Assembly: GCA_024277915.1 (NCBI GenBank)
Contig: JAJRUG010000128.1
Location: 1-64,000 of the forward strand
Origin: Gammaproteobacteria bacterium
Lineage (GTDB): Bacteria > Pseudomonadota > Gammaproteobacteria > Steroidobacterales > GCA-2729495
Reading direction: 5' to 3'
Length of the DNA: 64,000 nt
The notes under the pieces were generated by a model, which saw only the letters and a list, made by a program, of their open reading frames with translations, did no database searches and was not told where the DNA came from. Shown in pieces: positions 10,626 through 58,719 of the stretch (the first letter of the stretch is position 1; each line of letters begins with the position of its first letter). The position numbers were made by a program, and so were the translations under genes.

Positions 10626-10767
10626 GGATATTAGTGTTAGAGAAAAACCTGATTAAAATAGTACAGTGAATTTCTTAAGAGACCCTTAAGCTGTGATACT
10701 CAAGACTGACTCTTGCAATCAGTGCCCCATAATACTCTCTGAAGTGCCAGAACAGACTATTGTGTCA

Positions 10768-10850
10768 GAGGATACGTACCGTTAACCCTTGCGGCGAAAT
10801 ACGGACCGCAGGGAGCCATCCGCCTGCAAGGGTTAACGGTACGTATCCTC
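10768..10850. repeat. Long perfect hairpin repeat, copy A
   Basis: A 25-bp perfect inverted repeat (10768-10792 and 10826-10850) encloses a 33-base loop. The loop contains GGACCGCAGGGAGCCATCCG, shared with copies B and C at 54.1 and 57.7 kb. The element is preceded by TGTCAGAGGA and followed by TCCTCGGG, as in the other copies. Its arms differ from theirs at many positions but remain fully complementary to each other. No T-tract follows, so it does not look like an ordinary intrinsic terminator. It lies between the start of a flavin-binding protein gene and a tRNA gene; the bases around it (10626-10906) show no other gene. Confidence 0.85.
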
Positions 10851-10906: not shown

Positions 10907-10983
10907 TGGTGGGCCTGGTAGGACTTGAACCTACGACCAATGGATTATGAGTCCACTGCTCTAACCAGCTGAGCTACAGGCCC
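10907..10983 (-). tRNA. tRNA with CAU anticodon, probably tRNA-Ile2 (lysidine type)
   Basis: On the minus strand a full cloverleaf can be drawn: acceptor stem GGGCCTG/CAGGCCC (7 perfect pairs), D arm GCTCAGCTGGTTAGAGC, anticodon arm GTGGA-CTCATAA-TCCAT, T arm GTAGGTTCAAGTCCTAC, and an encoded CCA end. The anticodon is CAU. Candidates are elongator Met or the minor Ile tRNA whose C34 is changed to lysidine by TilS. The anticodon-stem and variable region (TTGGTCG, TTCAAGTCC) resemble bacterial tRNA-Ile2 more than elongator Met, and initiator Met is excluded by the paired first position. The identity choice is inference. Confidence 0.9.
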
Positions 10984-27272: not shown

Positions 27273-27280
27273 AGGAAATG

Positions 27281-27532
27281 AAAAGGGGGTCGGACCTCGA
27301 TAACCTGCTGATAAGCTATAAAAAACGGGGATATTCATCACCTGAATTTCGCTTAAAGGCACGTTTTCGGGGGTAAAAACGCTACTTTAAGCATCTGTGT
27401 GGCAGAGCGTGAAGTACTGATGCTTAGAAGCCCCATTTTGCCCCCCAAAACGTGGTTGTAAGACCCGTATGGTTGGCTGATATGATGGATAGTTCAATTT
27501 AAACATATAGTTATCGAGGTCCGACCCCTTTT
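27281..27532. mobile_element. MITE-like foldback element, 252 bp
   Basis: Terminal inverted repeats at 27281-27304 and 27510-27532 match over 23 bases with a single extra G on the left (AAAAGGGG..TCGGACCTCGATAAC). Inside, two further inverted pairs fold towards the centre: GCACGTTTTCGGGGG with CCCCCCAAAACGTGG, and TAAGCATC with GATGCTTA. There is no open frame, so it would be non-autonomous. GGGTCGGACC-type ends are often seen near REP/RAYT-type elements. It lies between two convergent genes, and its right end runs into the cca coding sequence. A degenerate relative of the right end is seen at 39730-39748. Confidence 0.75.
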
Positions 27533-28749
27533 GCATTCTTGATGGCAATCACCCGTGCTTCGTTGATCGCCTTGCCTAACGCTTTCCCTTCTAGCTGACC
27601 ATTTGCGGCAGCGGCAATCGATGCTGCATTGACCTTTGCAGCGGCGTTTCTTGCAGAGCGCAACAGGTCCGCTTGTGGATAGGCGTTATCCTGGCATCCT
27701 TTTCTGCCCTGCGAATCAGCTTGGGCTGCGGCCAGGAAATCTTCAAAGCGTTCCGGGCGTCGAAAGGCATCCACAGCATCGAGCATTTTGAGAATAGTAT
27801 CGGGGCGCAACTCCATGGCCATGTGACAATGGGTATGGTATTGCGCGACATGAATTGCCAGATCCCGGTATCGGTTAGGGACATTCAGGCGGTCGCATAG
27901 CTGGTTAACCAGCTTGATGCTTCGCTGTTCGTGTCCCCGGTGACGAGGCAACTCACTTTTCTGTGTGGTCGCTTTGCCCAGATCATGAACCAGCACGGCG
28001 AATCGTGCTTCGGTACTGATTTGCAGAACAGCTGCCTGGCGCAATGCCAGCAGAATATGGACACCGGTATCGATTTCCGGGTGCCATTGTTCCGGTTGTG
28101 GCACGCCAAACAGAGCATCCACCTCCGGAAAGATTACCGCCAGCGCACCACAGTCACGCAACACCTGGAAAAATATTTCCGGATGGTCTTCTCCAAGAGC
28201 CCGCTGTGTTTCTGTCCAGACCCTTTCAGGCACCAGTGATCCGACTTCGCCACTGGAGGCCATTTCTTTCATCAATTCCAGAGTCGAGGCGGCAACCGTG
28301 AATCCAAGTTCATGAAAACGGGCAGCAAAGCGTGCCACACGAAGAACACGCACGGGATCTTCCCTGAATGCTTCTGATACATGGCGCAATACCCTGTCAT
28401 CAATATCCGTCTGACCGCCATAGGGGTCGATTAGCCGGCCATCAGGATCCTGTGCGATAGCGTTGATAGTGAGGTCACGCCTGCGCAGATCTTCTTCCAG
28501 CGTAACCTCACTATTGGTGTGAAAATCAAAGCCGTGATAACCCCTGCCGGTTTTTCTTTCGGTACGCGCCAGGGCATATTCTTCCTTTGATTGCGGGTGG
28601 AGAAATACCGGAAAGTCCTTGCCTACCTTTTGGTAGCCCTGTTTTTCCAGCTCCCCTGCCTTGGCACCGACCACTACCCAATCACGTTCCCGGATTGCAA
28701 GACCCAGCAACTCATCACGGACGGCACCACCTACCAGGAAAATCTGCAT
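27511..28749 (-). CDS. cca: Multifunctional CCA tRNA nucleotidyltransferase
   Basis: 412 residues. The class II nucleotidyltransferase head has LVGGAVRDELLGL and RERDWVVVGA with the metal-binding DW (RDW), then RRDLTINAIA and RFAARFHELGF. The C-terminal part is an HD domain (AVLVHDLGKATTQ), typical of the gammaproteobacterial form with extra phosphatase and phosphodiesterase activity. It adds or repairs CCA at tRNA 3' ends. The last residues KGVGPR and the stop codon are encoded by the terminal repeat of the adjoining foldback element, so the native C-terminus was replaced or extended. Confidence 0.95.
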   Translation of the reverse strand: MQIFLVGGAVRDELLGLAIRERDWVVVGAKAGELEKQGYQKVGKDFPVFLHPQSKEEYALARTERKTGRGYHGFDFHTNSEVTLEEDLRRRDLTINAIAQDPDGRLIDPYGGQTDIDDRVLRHVSEAFREDPVRVLRVARFAARFHELGFTVAASTLELMKEMASSGEVGSLVPERVWTETQRALGEDHPEIFFQVLRDCGALAVIFPEVDALFGVPQPEQWHPEIDTGVHILLALRQAAVLQISTEARFAVLVHDLGKATTQKSELPRHRGHEQRSIKLVNQLCDRLNVPNRYRDLAIHVAQYHTHCHMAMELRPDTILKMLDAVDAFRRPERFEDFLAAAQADSQGRKGCQDNAYPQADLLRSARNAAAKVNAASIAAAANGQLEGKALGKAINEARVIAIKNAKGVGPR

Positions 28750-42164: not shown

Positions 42165-44486
42165 ATGCCCATGAACGATATCTGGCTGATTAGTGCGCTC
42201 GTGGCAGCCTTTCTGGGGCTGGGGTTGCTGTGCCTGTACTGGTGGGTCAGCAAACGTCGCTATGCCCGGGATATCGGCACGCTCCACGAGGAGATTGTGG
42301 ATGCTGCGGAGAACGCAGCATTTGGAAAACGGATCACCGGGTTGCGGGGATCTTCCGAGCTGATTGAGCTGGGCGATATCATCAATCAGCTATTTGATGC
42401 TCTGCATTCGAAAGACGGGCAGCTGCGTCAGGCAGAGGCGATGTTTCCTGACCTCGTTAATACCATGCCGGAAGTGGTTGTGGTGCATCGAAAGCACATT
42501 ATATTTGCCAATCATATTGCAGCAGGAATGCTGGGTGTTACAGCAGCACAACTTACCGGTAAGCCTTACACAGATATGATTCGTCCGGCCTACCGGGCGA
42601 TGATGCGCAAGTCGGTCGACAAACGCCTGGCCGGGGAAGAGGTTCCGGAAAAGCACGAAATACAATTGATTAATGGTGAAGAACGGGGGCTGTGGTTCGA
42701 GATTACCTCCGGCTTGATCAACTATCGCGGGCAGCCGGCCATTCTTTCGATTGGCAGGGATATCAGTTACCGCAAAAGCATCGAGGCGAATCTTGGCAGA
42801 AGCAAACATCAGGCACAGGTGACGCTTGAGTCCATCGGGGAGGGTGTGATTACCACAGACACCCAGGGAATTATCGACTATATGAATCTTGCTGCGGAAA
42901 GGCTCACCGGCGTCGCCCGTAATCATGCAGTGGGAAAAACCCTGGCTGACATTGTGAACCTCGTTGATGAGACTGATCGCCGCGATCTGGGCGACCCGGT
43001 TGCCCGGTGCCTGATGGATCGCCGCCAGATCAGTATGGGGCGCAGGGCAGTCATGGTGTCTGCTGACGGGAATGATGAATTGTCTATCGAGCTTACCGCA
43101 TCACCTATAAAGGGAGTGGGCGAGGCCCTTGCCGGCGTGGTGGTCATTATGCATGACGTCACAGAAATGCGTGGCCTGAACAGGCAAATGAGTTACCAGG
43201 CGGCACATGATCCACTGACCGGCCTGATCAATCGACGGGAATTTGAACGCAGACTGGAGTTGTCTCTGGGATCCGCGCACAAAGCGGAAGTGAACCACAT
43301 CCTGTGTTACCTGGATCTGGACCGTTTCAAGGTGGTGAACGACACTTGCGGCCATGCAGCCGGCGACAATATGCTGCGGGAAGTGGCAACCCTGATCAGG
43401 GATCAGGTACGGGATTCAGACTTTGTGGCACGACTTGGCGGTGATGAGTTTGGTCTGTTGTTATTCGGTTGTCCGCTGAAAAAAGCCCGGCAAATTGCCG
43501 ATGATGTCTGTACGGCCGTCAGGGACTACCGGTTTGTATGGCAGGACAGGATATTTACCATTGGTGTCAGTATCGGTCTGGTAGAGGTTGGCCGGGAAGC
43601 CGGCACCATGAAGGAAATGCTCAGTGCTGCAGACTCCGCTTGTTATATCGCCAAGCAACAGGGTCGCGGACAGGTGCATATCTATTCGGCGAAAGATGAA
43701 GTATCAGCCAGGCAACGAGGTGAAATTCGCTGGTTGCATATGCTACAAACAGCTCTTAAGGAAGACCGCTTCGAGATCCATACCCAGCCGATCATTTCAG
43801 TCACGGGTAAAGGGGAACATGGGCCGGCTATCGAAATCCTGTTGCGTATGATCGGTGATGACGGGCAGTTTATTTTACCGAAGCAGTTCATTCAGGCTGC
43901 GGAGCGGTACCAGCTCATGGTCAACGTAGACAGGTGGGTGGTGCAATCAACCCTGGCAGCGGTCGGGCAGGGCGCTATCAGGCTGCCTGAAAACCGGAGT
44001 TGCAGTATCAATCTCTCCGGGCAGACACTTGGTGAGGAGTCTTTCCTGGAATTCGTTGTGGATTGCCTCGATCACAGTCAGGTTGATCCGGTAGATATCT
44101 GTTTTGAGATCACTGAATCAGCCGTCATGGCTAATCTTGAGCAGGCGCGCCGATTCGTTGATGTGCTGCATGGCATGGGCTGTCAATTTGGCCTGGATGA
44201 TTTTGGCAGCGGTGTCGGTTCTCTTGCGCGACTGAAAGATCTGTCGATTGATTACCTGAAAATCGATGGTGCTTATACACATGACCTGGGCGAGGAAACA
44301 CTCAATCGGCAGGTGGTCGTAGCGGTGACAAAAATGGCAAGGGCAGTCGGTTTCAGGGTTATTGCTGAACAGGTCGAGGAACAAGAAGACTTCGATGCAT
44401 TGCGTGATATCGGTGTCGACTTCATCCAAGGGTATTTCGTCAATCATCCACGCCCGCTTGGTGAAAGCAACAGTCCAAGGCATTAG
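42165..44486 (+). CDS. PAS-GGDEF-EAL c-di-GMP turnover protein
   Basis: 773 residues from ATG 42165; a GTG at 42099 extends the frame by 22 residues and neither has a clear ribosome-binding site. One N-terminal membrane segment (ISALVAAFLGLGLLCLYWW), two PAS domains (about 90-200 and 215-340), GGDEF at 425-429 with an RxxD I-site (RDSD) just before it, and an EAL domain in which the signature is EIL (Glu557), followed by FEITESAV, FGLDDFGSG and LKIDGAY. Metal-binding Glu and Asp residues appear present, so phosphodiesterase activity is likely; both activities are possible. The stop codon lies at the edge of broken hairpin copy D. Confidence 0.92.
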   Translation: MPMNDIWLISALVAAFLGLGLLCLYWWVSKRRYARDIGTLHEEIVDAAENAAFGKRITGLRGSSELIELGDIINQLFDALHSKDGQLRQAEAMFPDLVNTMPEVVVVHRKHIIFANHIAAGMLGVTAAQLTGKPYTDMIRPAYRAMMRKSVDKRLAGEEVPEKHEIQLINGEERGLWFEITSGLINYRGQPAILSIGRDISYRKSIEANLGRSKHQAQVTLESIGEGVITTDTQGIIDYMNLAAERLTGVARNHAVGKTLADIVNLVDETDRRDLGDPVARCLMDRRQISMGRRAVMVSADGNDELSIELTASPIKGVGEALAGVVVIMHDVTEMRGLNRQMSYQAAHDPLTGLINRREFERRLELSLGSAHKAEVNHILCYLDLDRFKVVNDTCGHAAGDNMLREVATLIRDQVRDSDFVARLGGDEFGLLLFGCPLKKARQIADDVCTAVRDYRFVWQDRIFTIGVSIGLVEVGREAGTMKEMLSAADSACYIAKQQGRGQVHIYSAKDEVSARQRGEIRWLHMLQTALKEDRFEIHTQPIISVTGKGEHGPAIEILLRMIGDDGQFILPKQFIQAAERYQLMVNVDRWVVQSTLAAVGQGAIRLPENRSCSINLSGQTLGEESFLEFVVDCLDHSQVDPVDICFEITESAVMANLEQARRFVDVLHGMGCQFGLDDFGSGVGSLARLKDLSIDYLKIDGAYTHDLGEETLNRQVVVAVTKMARAVGFRVIAEQVEEQEDFDALRDIGVDFIQGYFVNHPRPLGESNSPRH

Positions 44487-44491
44487 CTGCC

Positions 44492-44587
44492 CGATTGGCA
44501 CGACGATTCAAGCAGTGAGAGACAGGCAGAAATGTAGAGGCAGGTGGTTCAATCCCGAGGATAGGTGCCGGTTACCCTTTCCTGCGG
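44492..44587 (-). repeat. Broken hairpin repeat, copy D (tail and one arm only)
   Basis: In minus-strand reading, one hairpin arm (44557-44582, nearly the same as the arm of copy B with one base missing) is followed by the conserved CCTCGGGATT..ACCACCTGC block (44540-44560) and, after a variable gap, a 20-base block at 44492-44511 identical to 54231-54250 of copy B. The loop and the opposite arm are missing. At the loop edge (TCCTGCGG) the sequence switches to an hppA-like fragment. It lies between convergent genes. Confidence 0.75.
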
Positions 44588-46273: not shown

Positions 46274-49200
46274 ATGCGTATCAGGTACATAGCAGTAATT
46301 GTTTTCACGATGGTGTTTCTGTCTGCCTGCGGCAGCGGCAACAGCCCTGCATTGCCTGTGGTGCCTGCTGACCCGGGCGATGATGTCACCCCTCCGGTTG
46401 GCATGGTCACCAGCCTCTCGATCACCCCCAGGTCAACCCTGCTCGCAAGACTGGATGATACCCATCAGCTCAATGCCGAACTCCTTGATGAAGACGGCGC
46501 GATGGTCGATAAACCGGTCGCCTGGACCAGCAGCGATCCGAACATTGTCGCGGTGGATGAACAGGGGCTGCTCACCTCCATGGGTACCATCGGCTCAGCT
46601 TCGGTGACGGCGGAGGTGGATGGAGTGACCTCAGGTCCGGTGATCGTGGTGGTGGTATTGCCGGCGCTCAACACACAGTTCGTCAATGATGACCAGGTGG
46701 TCGGCGACATGGAGCTGGTCGACCCCGAGTCACAATATGCCCCCGGTGCACAGTACCGGGTCACGCTGACCGGCATCGATGTGCCTGATATCGGTACGAT
46801 CCTTCTGGCCAGGGAAACGCAGCTGATTGCCGGCGGTGTTGTGGATGTGCAGCAGGATGGCGACGAGATCATCGTCACGCTGGAAGTGCTGCCGATCGAT
46901 GAACTGGTCACCAGCATGAAGATCGACCAGGTATTTGTGCCGACTGAAGATGACATCACGATGTCACAGGAAGCCTCGGAATATTACACGATGGAACGTC
47001 TGGAAGACGGCAGTTACCTGTTTACGCTATTACCGGATACACCCGTCGCAGAGCCTGTGGGCAGCTCGGTACAATCAGCGCGCACTGCTGATTCCATGGT
47101 ACAGGCAATACGCCCCCCCGATTCCACCGTGCAGGCGGTGATCGGTACGGTAGCCAATCCCTTTTATCCCTTTGACTGCAAATTCACCGGGCCAAGCTTC
47201 ACTGGCAATTCCGGCAACGAGGTTTTTACACTGCAGGGCTTGTCACCCACCATTGGTCTGGAAAAGGATATCTCCCTGCCGTTTGTTTATGACAGCGCCT
47301 TGGGTGGTTTGCAGGAGATCAAGCTACAGGCGAGGGTCAAGGGGACTTTTACTTTCAGGAACAAGCTGTCTGTCCAACTGGAAGGCAAGGCAGGTTGCAA
47401 GCTGAAACTGCTGGAGATCCCTGTTCCGTTTCCTGCGCCCTTGGGGCTGGTGCTGGGTGGCCAGATTCCCCTCGGGATCGGCTTTGAGCTCAGCGGTAAG
47501 GTCACGCTGGCCGATATGGGTTTTGGTGTCACGGCCAATTCTGAACTGCGTATGGAGCTTGGTATGGTTTGCCCCAACGGAGAGAACTGTGCGTTTGACG
47601 AAGACGGAGCTGTTCTTACCGCTACCGGTGAGGCCAAGCCGGTGATTGATTTACCCCCGGGGTTGAGCAACCCGGCAGGGGATCTGAAGTTTGAGCCGGC
47701 CGTTGAGGGGTTTGGCTATGCCGATTTTACCTTCGGGCATCCACTATTCAGTTCATGGCGCATGACCCTGGCCAATCTGCAAGCCGGGGTGAAGGTGGGT
47801 GCCAACCTCGCACTGGTGGAAACCCAGATTGATGATGGGAGCTATGCTTCTGACTACAAGCTGAGTACAGAGTTTTCAGCGAAGCCCGGTGAAGATCTGG
47901 CAGACCTGCTGACCCTGCTGGGCACGAGTCAGCTCAATGCACTGACCCTCACCGACAGTACCATCCTGCTCACCTCTCCGGCAGCGGAAGTCCCGCTGAC
48001 TGCGCCCACAACCAAGCTGATTACAGCAGATGTTGCAAATTACACAGTGGGTGATGTGGTGACTTTTACGGTCAAGCTGGATCCGAGCACCGTCAACTTT
48101 ATTCCGTTTGTCTACAATGTGGATGAGGTGATGATCTACCGGGATAATGAATTAGTCGCTGGTGCCAATGATCCGACCCGGGTGGAGCGGAGAACGGCCA
48201 GTGATGGTCAGACCGAGTTCACTATTACCTGGACGGCGACAGAGAGTGGATCGATCGGCGACAATTTCCATGCATTTGTCAGTACGGACTTGTTGCCGCT
48301 GCCTTATTTTGGAGAGCTGGAACTGGGGAAGGTGAGAGGTTCGTCCGCCGATAAGGCCTGGGGTAGTGCCGAGCTGATCGAGACTGACAATGCAGGGAAT
48401 GCATACCGTCCACAAATCGCCATTGATAATAACGGCAATGCCATCGCGGTGTGGCTCCAACACGATGGCACGCGCTGGAACATCAGGGCCAACCGCTTTG
48501 ATGGTACAAGCTGGGGCAGCGCCGAGCTGATTGAAACCAACAACGCAGGAGATGCATTCGATCCACAAATCGCCGTTGACGGTAACGGCAATGCCCTCGC
48601 GGTGTGGGCCCAATCTGATGGCACCCGCAATAACATCTGGGCCAATCGCTTTGATGGCACAAGCTGGGGCAGCGCCGTGCTGATTGAGACTAACAACGCA
48701 GGAAATGCATTCGCTCCACAAATTGCCGCTGATAACAACGGCAATGCCCTCGCGGTGTGGCAGCAATCCGATGGTACCCGCTTTAACATCTGGGCTAAGC
48801 GCTTCGATGGCACAAGTTGGGGCAGCGCCACACTGATTTCGACCAACAATGCAATCGGTGGATTTGTTCCGCGAATCGCTTTTGATAACAACGGCAATGC
48901 CCTCGCGGTGTGGCGGCAATTCGGTGGCACCCCTATTATCAGCAGCATCTGGGCCAACCGCTTTGATGGCACAAGCTGGGGCAGCGCTGAGCTGATTGAG
49001 AACAACAATGCAGGGGATGGATGGGAGCCGCAAATCGCTTTTGATAACAACGGCAATGCCCTCGCGGTGTGGCAGCAATTCGATGGCCCCCAAGGCGACC
49101 CCAGCTCCCGCGATGGCATCTGGGCCAACCGCTTTGATGGCACAAGCTGGGGCAGCGCCGAGCAGATTGACACCAACAATGCAAGAGGTACATTCGGTCA

Positions 49201-49576
49201 GCAAATCGCTTTTGATAACAACGGCAATGCCCTCGCGGTGTGGCAGCAAGGCGATGGCATCTGGGCCAACCGCTTTGATGGCACAAGCTGGGGCATCGCT
49301 GAGCTGATTGAGACCAACAACGCAGTCAATGCATCCCGTCCGCAAATCGCTGTTGATAGCAACGGCAATGCCCTCGCGGTGTGGCACCAATCCGATGGCA
49401 TCGGGGCCAACCGCTTTGATGGCACAAGCTGGGGCAGCGCCGAGCTGATTGCGACCAGCATTGTAAGCGGAGCAGACTCTCCACAAATCGCCTTTGATAA
49501 CAACGGCAATGCCCTCGCGGTGTGGGGGCAATCTGATGGCACCCGCTTGAACATCTGGGCGAACCGCTTTGAATAA
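46274..49576 (+). CDS. Large lipoprotein with Ig-like domain and eight C-terminal tandem repeats
   Basis: 1100 residues. A GGGGGAG site precedes the ATG by 6 bases, and the N-terminus is a lipoprotein signal (MVFLSACGSGN). Residues about 44-128 form a bacterial Ig-like (Big_2) domain (LNAELLDEDGAMVDKPVAWTSSDPNIVAVD). A middle beta-rich region of unknown type follows. Residues 696-1100 consist of eight repeats of mostly 51 residues: WGSAELIETNNAG, then PQIAFDNNGNALAVW, then IWANRFDGTS. Each repeat resembles a blade-like beta unit, so an eight-bladed propeller is plausible. It is likely surface or periplasmic, possibly an adhesin or glycan-binding protein. It is divergent from the Fic gene. Confidence 0.85.
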   Translation: MRIRYIAVIVFTMVFLSACGSGNSPALPVVPADPGDDVTPPVGMVTSLSITPRSTLLARLDDTHQLNAELLDEDGAMVDKPVAWTSSDPNIVAVDEQGLLTSMGTIGSASVTAEVDGVTSGPVIVVVVLPALNTQFVNDDQVVGDMELVDPESQYAPGAQYRVTLTGIDVPDIGTILLARETQLIAGGVVDVQQDGDEIIVTLEVLPIDELVTSMKIDQVFVPTEDDITMSQEASEYYTMERLEDGSYLFTLLPDTPVAEPVGSSVQSARTADSMVQAIRPPDSTVQAVIGTVANPFYPFDCKFTGPSFTGNSGNEVFTLQGLSPTIGLEKDISLPFVYDSALGGLQEIKLQARVKGTFTFRNKLSVQLEGKAGCKLKLLEIPVPFPAPLGLVLGGQIPLGIGFELSGKVTLADMGFGVTANSELRMELGMVCPNGENCAFDEDGAVLTATGEAKPVIDLPPGLSNPAGDLKFEPAVEGFGYADFTFGHPLFSSWRMTLANLQAGVKVGANLALVETQIDDGSYASDYKLSTEFSAKPGEDLADLLTLLGTSQLNALTLTDSTILLTSPAAEVPLTAPTTKLITADVANYTVGDVVTFTVKLDPSTVNFIPFVYNVDEVMIYRDNELVAGANDPTRVERRTASDGQTEFTITWTATESGSIGDNFHAFVSTDLLPLPYFGELELGKVRGSSADKAWGSAELIETDNAGNAYRPQIAIDNNGNAIAVWLQHDGTRWNIRANRFDGTSWGSAELIETNNAGDAFDPQIAVDGNGNALAVWAQSDGTRNNIWANRFDGTSWGSAVLIETNNAGNAFAPQIAADNNGNALAVWQQSDGTRFNIWAKRFDGTSWGSATLISTNNAIGGFVPRIAFDNNGNALAVWRQFGGTPIISSIWANRFDGTSWGSAELIENNNAGDGWEPQIAFDNNGNALAVWQQFDGPQGDPSSRDGIWANRFDGTSWGSAEQIDTNNARGTFGQQIAFDNNGNALAVWQQGDGIWANRFDGTSWGIAELIETNNAVNASRPQIAVDSNGNALAVWHQSDGIGANRFDGTSWGSAELIATSIVSGADSPQIAFDNNGNALAVWGQSDGTRLNIWANRFE
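48359..49573 (+). repeat. Eight in-frame tandem repeats of about 153 bp
   Basis: The repeats are 51, 51, 51, 53, 57, 47, 47 and 48 residues long. The DNA of the repeats is nearly identical in the block coding for NNGNALAVW and in the NRFDGTSWG block, with variation focused on the segment after AVW and after TNNA. Such even homogenisation indicates recent duplication or gene conversion, and copy number probably varies between strains. Confidence 0.85.
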
Positions 49577-54028: not shown

Positions 54029-54096
54029 CTGCAATAGTCGAGAGCCATCAGTATTTCAATGCCCCCCTCCGAAAACTCAATATACCGCCGATGTCA

Positions 54097-54250
54097 GAGG
54101 AGTAGGTGCCGGTTACCCTTTCCAGCGGAGTAAAGCGGACCGCAGGGAGCCATCCGCAGGAAAGGGTAACCGGCACCTACTCCTCGGGATTAAACCACCT
54201 GCGTTAACGTTTCCGCCGGTTTTTATTTGTTTGAATCGTCGTGCCAATCG
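54097..54250. repeat. Long perfect hairpin repeat, copy B, with conserved tail
   Basis: A 27-bp perfect inverted repeat (54097-54123 and 54159-54185) encloses a 35-base loop; GCGGA and TCCGC at the loop edges add five more pairs after an A-A mismatch. The flanks are GATGTCAGAGGA and TCCTCGGG. A tail follows with ATTAAACCACCTGC and, after a variable stretch, a 20-base block (54231-54250, starting TTGAATCGTCGTGCC) identical to one in copy D. Sits in the 322-base space between convergent adk and rnd, which holds no gene. Confidence 0.88.
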
Positions 54251-54350
54251 TCCGGCATTAGCTGCTCCGATCCCTTTTTGTCGGGGGAACGGCGGTATGT
54301 TCGGACTCTGATGGCAAGATTGGGCTTCGGCTGTGGGAGCAAAGGTTTTG

Positions 54351-57449: not shown

Positions 57450-57614
57450 ATGAAAAGACATATGTGCCTGGTTTGCGGGTTTATATTCGATGAGGCCAAG
57501 GGAGCACCCGAACATGGCATTGCACCCGGGACTTGCTGGGAAGACGTGCCCCTGTCATGGAGATGCCCTGACTGTGGTGCCGGGAAAGAGGATTTCGAGC
57601 CAGCTGATGCTTGA
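57450..57614 (+). CDS. Rubredoxin
   Basis: 54-residue protein too short for most ORF screens. It has both Fe ligand pairs: [14 protein letters not shown] (CxxCG) and [14 protein letters not shown] (CPxCG), spaced as in small rubredoxins, with [12 protein letters not shown] between. The extra Cys in GTCW is not a usual ligand. It carries single electrons to partners such as oxygen-reducing or alkane-oxidising systems; no partner is adjacent. It follows the macrodomain gene by 9 bases, so co-transcription with mpl is likely. The ATG is preceded by GAGAG about 6 bases upstream. Confidence 0.92.
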
Positions 57615-57672
57615 TTCTGCAATCAGCGTCCGTTAGTACGCTCAGGAAAATCCAAAATTTGTGTTGATGTCA

Positions 57673-57818
57673 GAGGACAGGTAGCTGGTACGCCTTTCCA
57701 GCGGAGTAAAGCGGACCGAAGGGAGCCATCCGCAGGAAAGGCGTACCAGCTACCTGTCCTCGGGGTTTACCGCCAATCTTGTCGTTTGCCCGTCTCACCT
57801 CGCTTGAATGGTCGTGCC
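57673..57818. repeat. Long perfect hairpin repeat, copy C, with tail
   Basis: A 27-bp perfect inverted repeat (57673-57699 and 57735-57761) with a 35-base loop that differs from copy B's loop at one position. Arms differ from copy B at nine positions and each change is matched on the other arm. Flanks are again GATGTCAGAGGA and TCCTCGGG, and a tail block TTGAATGGTCGTGCC (57804-57818) corresponds to that of copies B and D with one change. It lies between the convergent rubredoxin and TraB/GumN genes. Confidence 0.88.
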
Positions 57819-57846
57819 CTTCACTCGGCCTCATCTGCCCGATCCC

Positions 57847-58719
57847 CTAACGCTGAATCTGTTTCGACGGGTATCCCGCTTTGTCCAGCATCGCCAGTAC
57901 ACTGTCTTTTCCGACCAGATGCCCGGTACCCACCACGATCAGATAATCATCCGAATCCTTGGTGAGTTGAGAGATAATTTTAGTCCAGTTGCGATTGCGA
58001 TCAACCAGCATGCGTTGATAGAGTTCGGGTTGTTCCGCCATCGTGTCAATGATCAGGGATTCCAATGCCCTGGTATTGCCCGACTTCCACGCAGTGATCA
58101 TATTGGCAACCATTTCCTCTACTTCACCTGCCTCATCAAGAGTCGCCAGAAGAAAATCCCTCTGTGCACTGATTGACATTCCATCCATTACGCCGAGTTG
58201 ATACTCCAGGGTTTCAAGCCCGCGAATCTCTTTCCTGTCCTGCATGGCGCGTGCAGCAAGCCGGGAGTCCACACCGAAGTTCGGGTCAAAGCCGAGTTGC
58301 ATCAGTGTCAACTGAGTGACAACAATGGCTCCATACCAGGGCTCGAACGCATCGAGTATCGCCATGCTGATATTGATTTCAGCGGCCATTTTGCTCGCCC
58401 TGTCATAGGCAGCCGCTCCCAGCATGTCTTTAAGCTGTTTGCCATCCGGATCCGCGGCGAGTTGCATAATAGCCAGCTGTGCCTGCATTGGATCCATGTC
58501 GTCCAGATCAATTTCCATTATCAGGGTGTCAGAGTTACGGTAGGCTTCGTCAATTTTGCTTGCCAGAGGATAGTCATCTGCCCGCAGGTAATGCACCGAG
58601 CCGAGCAACATGATGCGATTTTTCGTGCCCTGTAGTTCCCACAAAGCCAGTGCATCTGACTGAGCAAACCCTGATACGAGAACAAAGACCAGTACAATAA
58701 GCAATTTCAGTCGAGTCAT
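57847..58719 (-). CDS. TraB/GumN family protein
   Basis: 290 residues with a signal peptide (LLIVLVFVLVSGFAQSDA). The family's signature is complete: LWELQGTKNRIMLLGSVHYL (GxxH), DTLIMEIDLDD, RKEIRGLETLEYQLGVMDG and the closing VVGTGHLVGKDSVLAML (GxGH). The TraB/Tiki fold is a metal-dependent protease in animals; bacterial substrates are unknown. It is probably secreted to the periplasm. Stands alone, convergent with rubredoxin across hairpin C. Confidence 0.93.
   Translation of the reverse strand: MTRLKLLIVLVFVLVSGFAQSDALALWELQGTKNRIMLLGSVHYLRADDYPLASKIDEAYRNSDTLIMEIDLDDMDPMQAQLAIMQLAADPDGKQLKDMLGAAAYDRASKMAAEINISMAILDAFEPWYGAIVVTQLTLMQLGFDPNFGVDSRLAARAMQDRKEIRGLETLEYQLGVMDGMSISAQRDFLLATLDEAGEVEEMVANMITAWKSGNTRALESLIIDTMAEQPELYQRMLVDRNRNWTKIISQLTKDSDDYLIVVGTGHLVGKDSVLAMLDKAGYPSKQIQR

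Follow-up and report, generated by a model that had tools for sequence, protein, structure and literature searches.

Dispersed hairpins with a conserved tip and freely varying, matched arms: an apparently undescribed relative of bacterial repetitive palindromes

The window analysed here, a stretch of 64,000 nucleotides in contig C106 of the 3.10-Mb draft genome (G000) of a Woeseia-type marine bacterium, carries several copies of what is apparently a widespread and undescribed relative of the known bacterial repetitive palindromes, a hairpin element with a nearly invariant tip and arms that differ from copy to copy. We propose, with a probability of about 0.45, that it is a REPIN/BIME-like mobile palindrome, dispersed and non-autonomous, with the hairpins as the ends at which a putative trans-acting factor would recognize a folded strand. 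The observations in support of this reading are the copy number, the invariance of the tip, the organization as an inverted-pair unit, the presence or absence of units at corresponding sites together with tandem copies, the matched evolution of the arms in place, the strand-specific pairing and the placement between convergent genes.

The copies of the hairpin in the window are summarized in Table 1. The original prediction, made from the sequence of the window, was accurate in its description: the three intact copies A, B and C were located exactly, their loop cores are identical apart from one C/A difference, the arms of each copy are perfect reverse complements, and all nine arm differences (9/9) between copies B and C are matched on the opposite arm. 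The location of copies B, C and the broken copy D between convergent genes was also upheld by the open reading frames, copy B lying between the genes for adenylate kinase and an RNase-D-like protein. When compared with dinucleotide shuffles, the folding of copies A, B and C gave z-scores of -8.4, -10.4 and -10.7, respectively. The predicted unit of hairpin plus flanks turned out to be too small; both parts belong to a unit of about 340 bp that in its full form includes a second, inverted hairpin whose loop is the same. The window contains two further repeats, a tandem array of eight imperfect copies, each about 150 bp long, at 48328-49572, probably inside a repeat protein gene, and a 28-bp inverted repeat (93%) at 27277-27304 and 27510-27537, 205 bp apart, which contains GGGGTCGGACC.

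Table 1. Features of the tip-hairpin copies within the 64-kb window
Feature	Position	Strand	Description
Copy A, type-1 hairpin	10768-10850	+	25-bp perfect arms; altered tip AAATACGGACCGCAGGGAGCCAT
Copy A unit, left outer inverted-repeat remnant TGATACTCAAGACTGACTCTTGCAATCAGTGC	10694-10725	+	Right part of the unit lost
tRNA gene beside copy A unit	10910-10983	-	Copy A lies just 3' of the tRNA gene
Copy B, type-1 hairpin	54097-54185	+	27-bp perfect arms plus GCGGA/TCCGC; invariant tip
Copy B unit	54030-54321	+	Outer repeat remnant, type-1 hairpin, spacer, inner half only of type-2 hairpin (~54254-54285), right outer fragment
Copy B invariant tip GTAAAGCGGACCGCAGGGAGCCATCCGC	54130-54157	+	Contains the 23-nt TAAAGCGGACCGNAGGGAGCCAT common to hairpins of different genera and families
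Copy C, type-1 hairpin	57673-57761	+	27-bp perfect arms; nine positions unlike copy B, all matched
Copy C unit	57610-57853	+	Outer repeat remnant, type-1 hairpin, spacer, inner part of type-2 hairpin (~57828-57853)
Copy D, broken	44481-44587	-	Type-1 inner half (44554-44587), spacer (44492-44561), collapsed type-2 remnant; outer half and tip lost

The genome of the window and its relatives were searched for the tip pattern TAAAGCGGACCGNAGGGAGCCAT, allowing up to three mismatches and using the same pattern read backwards as a control. A total of 60 tips were identified in G000 against 0 for the backwards pattern, and these matches are therefore not due to chance. Had the copies in the window been the only ones, this would have spoken against the original prediction; the search yielded many, cleanly separated from the control. 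In G015, the sister genome belonging to the same genus, there are at least 37 tips, and the tip is carried by 37 of the 396 genomes of the order, most of the genomes being draft MAGs, with a patchy distribution over several families and a copy number that reaches 63 in a genome of another family. Matches bearing names are Woeseia-type MAGs, Woeseia being placed by NCBI in Woeseiales. The tip was absent from about 670 sampled genomes outside the order, which consisted of a class sample and a phylum sample. Since no viral contig and no phage carried the tip and the plasmid records gave just two weak matches (E 0.2), in Salinibacter, a phage or plasmid origin was dropped. A search of the open literature for a description of the tip repeat gave nothing relevant, which is weak evidence as subscription papers fall mostly outside its scope.

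For sequence comparison, a set of 206 distinct hairpins was compiled from about 30 genomes, with preference for the copies listed first for each genome; as copies inside one genome are not independent, tests were also made per genome and per cluster. The sequence TAAAGCGGACCGNAGGGAGCCAT is common to all 206 hairpins with few variants. Arms are not related from one genome to another, and often not even from copy to copy in one genome: arms taken from different genomes pair at the background level (48%), as against 90% for the two arms of the same hairpin. The hairpins of G000 are of two types, with the feet TGTCAGAGG..CCTCGGGG and CCAAGGC..GCCG. For the tip we infer a structure of two G-C pairs (GC/GC), a GGA/GA internal loop and CC/GG pairs that close a loop of GNA or GNNA, variants of which were obtained by MFE folding. 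The natural variation fits this proposed structure, including the swap of C10-G16 to G10-C16, which several genomes show together with a G8C change, the replacement of GNA by GNNA in the tips of G015, and an additional small hairpin between A9 and C10 in the tips of G166 and G295.

The truncated copies have their breakpoints inside the loop, at variable positions. A cut site for an enzyme in the loop was considered as the origin of the half-hairpins and dropped, because the breakpoints vary, their detection is biased, and the half copy of G000 at the L025/L034 locus corresponds to a hairpin that is still whole in G015, thus representing a deletion. Hairpins in another genome (L206 and L207 in G305) have an intact tip with non-matching arms, and carry similar right halves with different left halves, as if exchanged at the loop.

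In G000, hairpins of the two types often form an inverted pair, about 141-147 bp from tip to tip, within the unit of about 340 bp, which is bounded by imperfect outer inverted repeats. Pairs in the opposite order are also found in other genomes, where solo hairpins are common. Two units of G000 (L006 and L021) are missing from the corresponding sites of G015, and G015 carries tandem units with a period of 339 bp and 91-95% identity. The original prediction had offered a mobile foldback unit and a structured RNA or DNA site as alternatives; these findings are signs of mobility, the folded strand is also under selection (see below), and either of the two may apply. Against mobility, neither target-site duplications nor clean unit ends were seen, the empty sites of G015 included; the 25 most frequent Pfam families in each set of flanking proteins (126 proteins) included neither a transposase or reverse transcriptase nor any further mobility gene; and no autonomous copy of the element was found.

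The residual mismatches of the stems differ between the two strands. After scoring the inner stems blind to wobble, with an equal penalty for every mismatch, we found 128 G.U against 13 A.C on the strand that carries the tip, and the excess persisted when counted by genome label (24 versus 0, with 7 ties) and with one hairpin per arm cluster (27 versus 2; leader clustering was used for the arms, nearly all of which were fused by single linkage). Such an excess of G.U would not be expected from a strand-symmetric process, and we infer therefore that it is the tip strand that folds, with selection acting on its fold. The element thus has a strand-specific, covarying secondary structure, as is characteristic of a structured functional nucleic acid, either RNA or single-stranded DNA. 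The bias is independent of neighbouring transcription, with 23 versus 0 for copies in sense and 23 versus 2 for copies in antisense direction, so that read-through mRNA is an unlikely carrier of the fold; this favours as the carrier single-stranded DNA, or RNA with its own promoter, no sign of which was seen.

The gene contexts of the element, determined from ORF calls of at least 90 codons, are predominantly convergent, with 92 convergent, 10 divergent and 41 and 32 co-directional pairs of flanking genes. The solo copies between co-directional genes are 19 in sense and 14 in antisense orientation. By Pfam, the 126 flanking proteins are products of ordinary housekeeping genes, which lie on many contigs. 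A shared neighbouring gene or mobility gene as the partner of the element was dropped from consideration.

This enrichment of convergent and depletion of divergent sites would also be expected of an element serving the host at the 3' ends of genes, that is, of an RNA hairpin which between convergent genes acts as a bidirectional terminator, a readthrough block or a protector of mRNA 3' ends, its tip being bound by an RNA-binding protein. Tolerance of G.U is typical of RNA selection, and the near equality of solos in both orientations and the same wobble bias in antisense copies argue against such a function. Likewise, the element has been kept between rpsJ and rplC, where a conserved promoter-like sequence follows it in front of rplC, and the sites of copies B and C in the sister species bear different long hairpins, as if any hairpin were useful; yet a T-tract is absent, and just about a tenth of the sampled genomes of the order carry the tip. 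We consider this explanation unlikely, and its narrower form, a sense-only hairpin at mRNA 3' ends, was dropped because both orientation and wobble bias are independent of the neighbouring genes. The original prediction that the hairpins are not CRISPRs, intrinsic terminators or known riboswitches is in agreement with our results: no T-tract follows the stems of copies A, B and C, no terminator-like site was detected at copy B or C, and in the Rfam search of the window only the tRNA reached the gathering score, the permissive search adding sub-threshold long-hairpin matches only.

The tip strand might alternatively be bound, in an extruded cruciform or hairpin, by a chromosome, topology or repair protein of the host, in the way that BIMEs are bound by gyrase and IHF. 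The orientation-neutral placement, the convergent intergenic sites, the strand-specific pairing and the long retention at rpsJ-rplC are all consistent with such a DNA-structure site, and its patchy occurrence among close relatives and the empty sites in the sister species speak against a site essential for the host, leaving it improbable in our estimate.

The matched evolution of the arms was analysed within one family and at one orthologous locus. In the type-2 family of G000, the tip diverges by 0.2%, the flanks by 26-30%, and the arms by 7% close to the tip, increasing to 26% at the foot. Changes in these arms comprise 73 matched Watson-Crick changes (44 transitions and 29 transversions), 6 single changes and 2 double non-pairing changes. 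Five species share an identical tip in the rpsJ-rplC spacer, where 10 arm pairs are changed on both sides and none on one side by a standard pair, and this signal vanishes when the partners are slid by one column. Since the locus is orthologous, these ten double-sided changes indicate that matched change occurs in place and not solely by copying of whole elements. The numerous matched transversions, far above the single changes, favour one-step copying from arm to arm, as originally suggested, and confirm that the compensation is not random; the excess of transitions in matched changes relative to the flanks (44:29 versus 174:223, p = 0.011) favours in addition some stepwise selection. The earlier statement that either selection or copying of the folded form keeps the stem perfect can thus be extended, copying being supported and the strand-specific G.U excess indicating selection beyond copying alone. 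Template switching that keeps the loop and repairs the stem has been proposed (PMC8794818). The tip-hairpin pair between rpsJ and rplC (L174, L176, L244, L246 and L255) is followed by a conserved promoter-like sequence, TTGTAA..TATAAT, before rplC, which suggests that the S10 operon is split at this spacer.

Mutation alone might account for the perfect arms, if intrastrand template switching in replication keeps any long palindrome perfect and the repeats are inert, with no need of selection. This mechanism is described (PMC8794818, PMC8604942) and would explain the many matched transversions and the few single changes, and the truncated copies break within the loop; it leaves unexplained the near-invariant tip across families and the 128 to 13 strand asymmetry, and the enrichment of transitions in matched changes and the lack of any loop inversion among about 55 hairpins of G000 also count against it. 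We regard this explanation as already weakened and quite improbable.

Among known systems, the element most resembles the REP, BIME and REPIN palindromes associated with RAYT, with which it shares dispersed intergenic palindromes, frequent inverted doublets in extragenic space (105 of 199 hairpins), the bias to convergent genes, compensatory changes and pairing as single-stranded DNA or RNA; it differs in its sequence-free arms of 25-31 bp, its conserved 23-nt apical loop and the lack of a detected association with RAYT. That the hairpins form an unusual REP family mobilized by a RAYT (Y1 tyrosine transposase) is highly improbable and, as tested, largely refuted: although REPIN-like inverted pairs, intergenic dispersal and compensatory changes are as described (PMC3116915) and Y1_Tnp genes occur in many genomes of the order, no such gene is present in the two carriers G000 and G008, its frequency is the same with the element (25/36 genomes) and without it (17/24), and the Y1_Tnp loci fetched contain no convincing hairpin copy, L185 having a tip-like match with 5 mismatches and no evident stem. 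We therefore classify the element as a variant of the dispersed extragenic palindromes, REPIN/BIME-like, for which RAYT-dependent membership is not supported.

The short non-autonomous intergenic palindromes with terminal inverted repeats, such as ERIC, NEMIS (Correia), YPAL and MITE-like units, are similar in organization. ERIC, NEMIS and YPAL-like palindromes retain sequence over the whole family, whereas the arms of the present element are unrelated between genomes and the tip alone is shared, and no target duplication was seen. Like attC sites and the ends of IS200/IS605, the element appears to have one folded strand as its functional form and a largely free stem sequence, but it is conserved in the loop and not at the stem base, and has neither GTTRRRY/RYYYAAC feet nor a cassette array; an attC or integron assignment was rejected on the basis of the feet, which include no GTTRRRY, and of the housekeeping flanks on many contigs. 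Comparison with REP/RAYT and with Rfam, as proposed in the original prediction, thus upheld neither assignment, and the arms are not explained by a known REP or attC-type family. The stem-loop origins of HUH Rep replicons are a possible further parallel, with a perfect free stem and an invariant loop, and the present element differs from these in being chromosomal, in many copies, with a loop of 23 nt and no Rep gene seen nearby. The maintenance of hairpins (quasipalindromes) by template switching, described for rRNA genes (PMC8794818), involves the same one-step matched changes with the loop kept and the stem repaired, and is favoured by stable GNRA-type loops; the tip element is different as it consists of dispersed repeats with arms of 25-31 bp and has the strand asymmetry in addition.

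According to the REPIN/BIME-like reading, a short intergenic unit, with two inverted hairpins at a distance of about 130-150 bp in its full form, would be spread through the genome by the putative trans-acting factor, which would recognize one folded single strand, a structured tip on a long stem, with the sequence of the arms left free. The recognized strand would more likely be DNA than RNA, because the wobble bias ignores the direction of neighbouring genes; the strand-specific pairing would suit RNA equally were the copies transcribed by themselves. The perfect arms might be maintained jointly, by selection on the folded strand and by template switching from arm to arm, which a stable tip could promote. 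An element that is merely selfish would not be expected to stay in place for long at rpsJ-rplC, as this one has in several species, and this counts against the reading.

A second family of long hairpins (L329 and L330-L335) has a conserved 52-nt tip, ..GTGAACCCATCCATGGGGGCTCG.., and copy-specific perfect arms of up to 92 bp. Among 114 gammaproteobacterial genomes sampled, 10 carry its tip, the copy number per genome reaching 43. At the G015 sites that match copies B and C of the window, L328 and L329 are located: the site of copy C holds a hairpin of 40 bp (contig C115, L328:567-670), whose loop of 24 nt has no relation to the tip family, and L329 is a 92-bp hairpin (contig C319, L329:223-458). 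Hairpins with a conserved tip and free arms may thus form a broader class. Whether they make up a separate class of element, in which only the apical tip is encoded and recognized and the sequence-free arms are rewritten from arm to arm, in place and at dozens of loci, so as to stay foldable on one strand, is a tentative and somewhat doubtful suggestion; the second, unrelated tip family suggests that such a class would be general and not tied to RAYT.

These hairpins provide a clean natural record of the evolution of perfect stems, with free arms, an invariant tip and orthologous loci, and with fast-evolving flanks that serve as an internal control, so that stepwise compensation and one-step template switching become directly testable against each other. 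If a factor recognizes the tip, it would represent a new system of folded-strand recognition alongside the RAYTs and the integron integrases.
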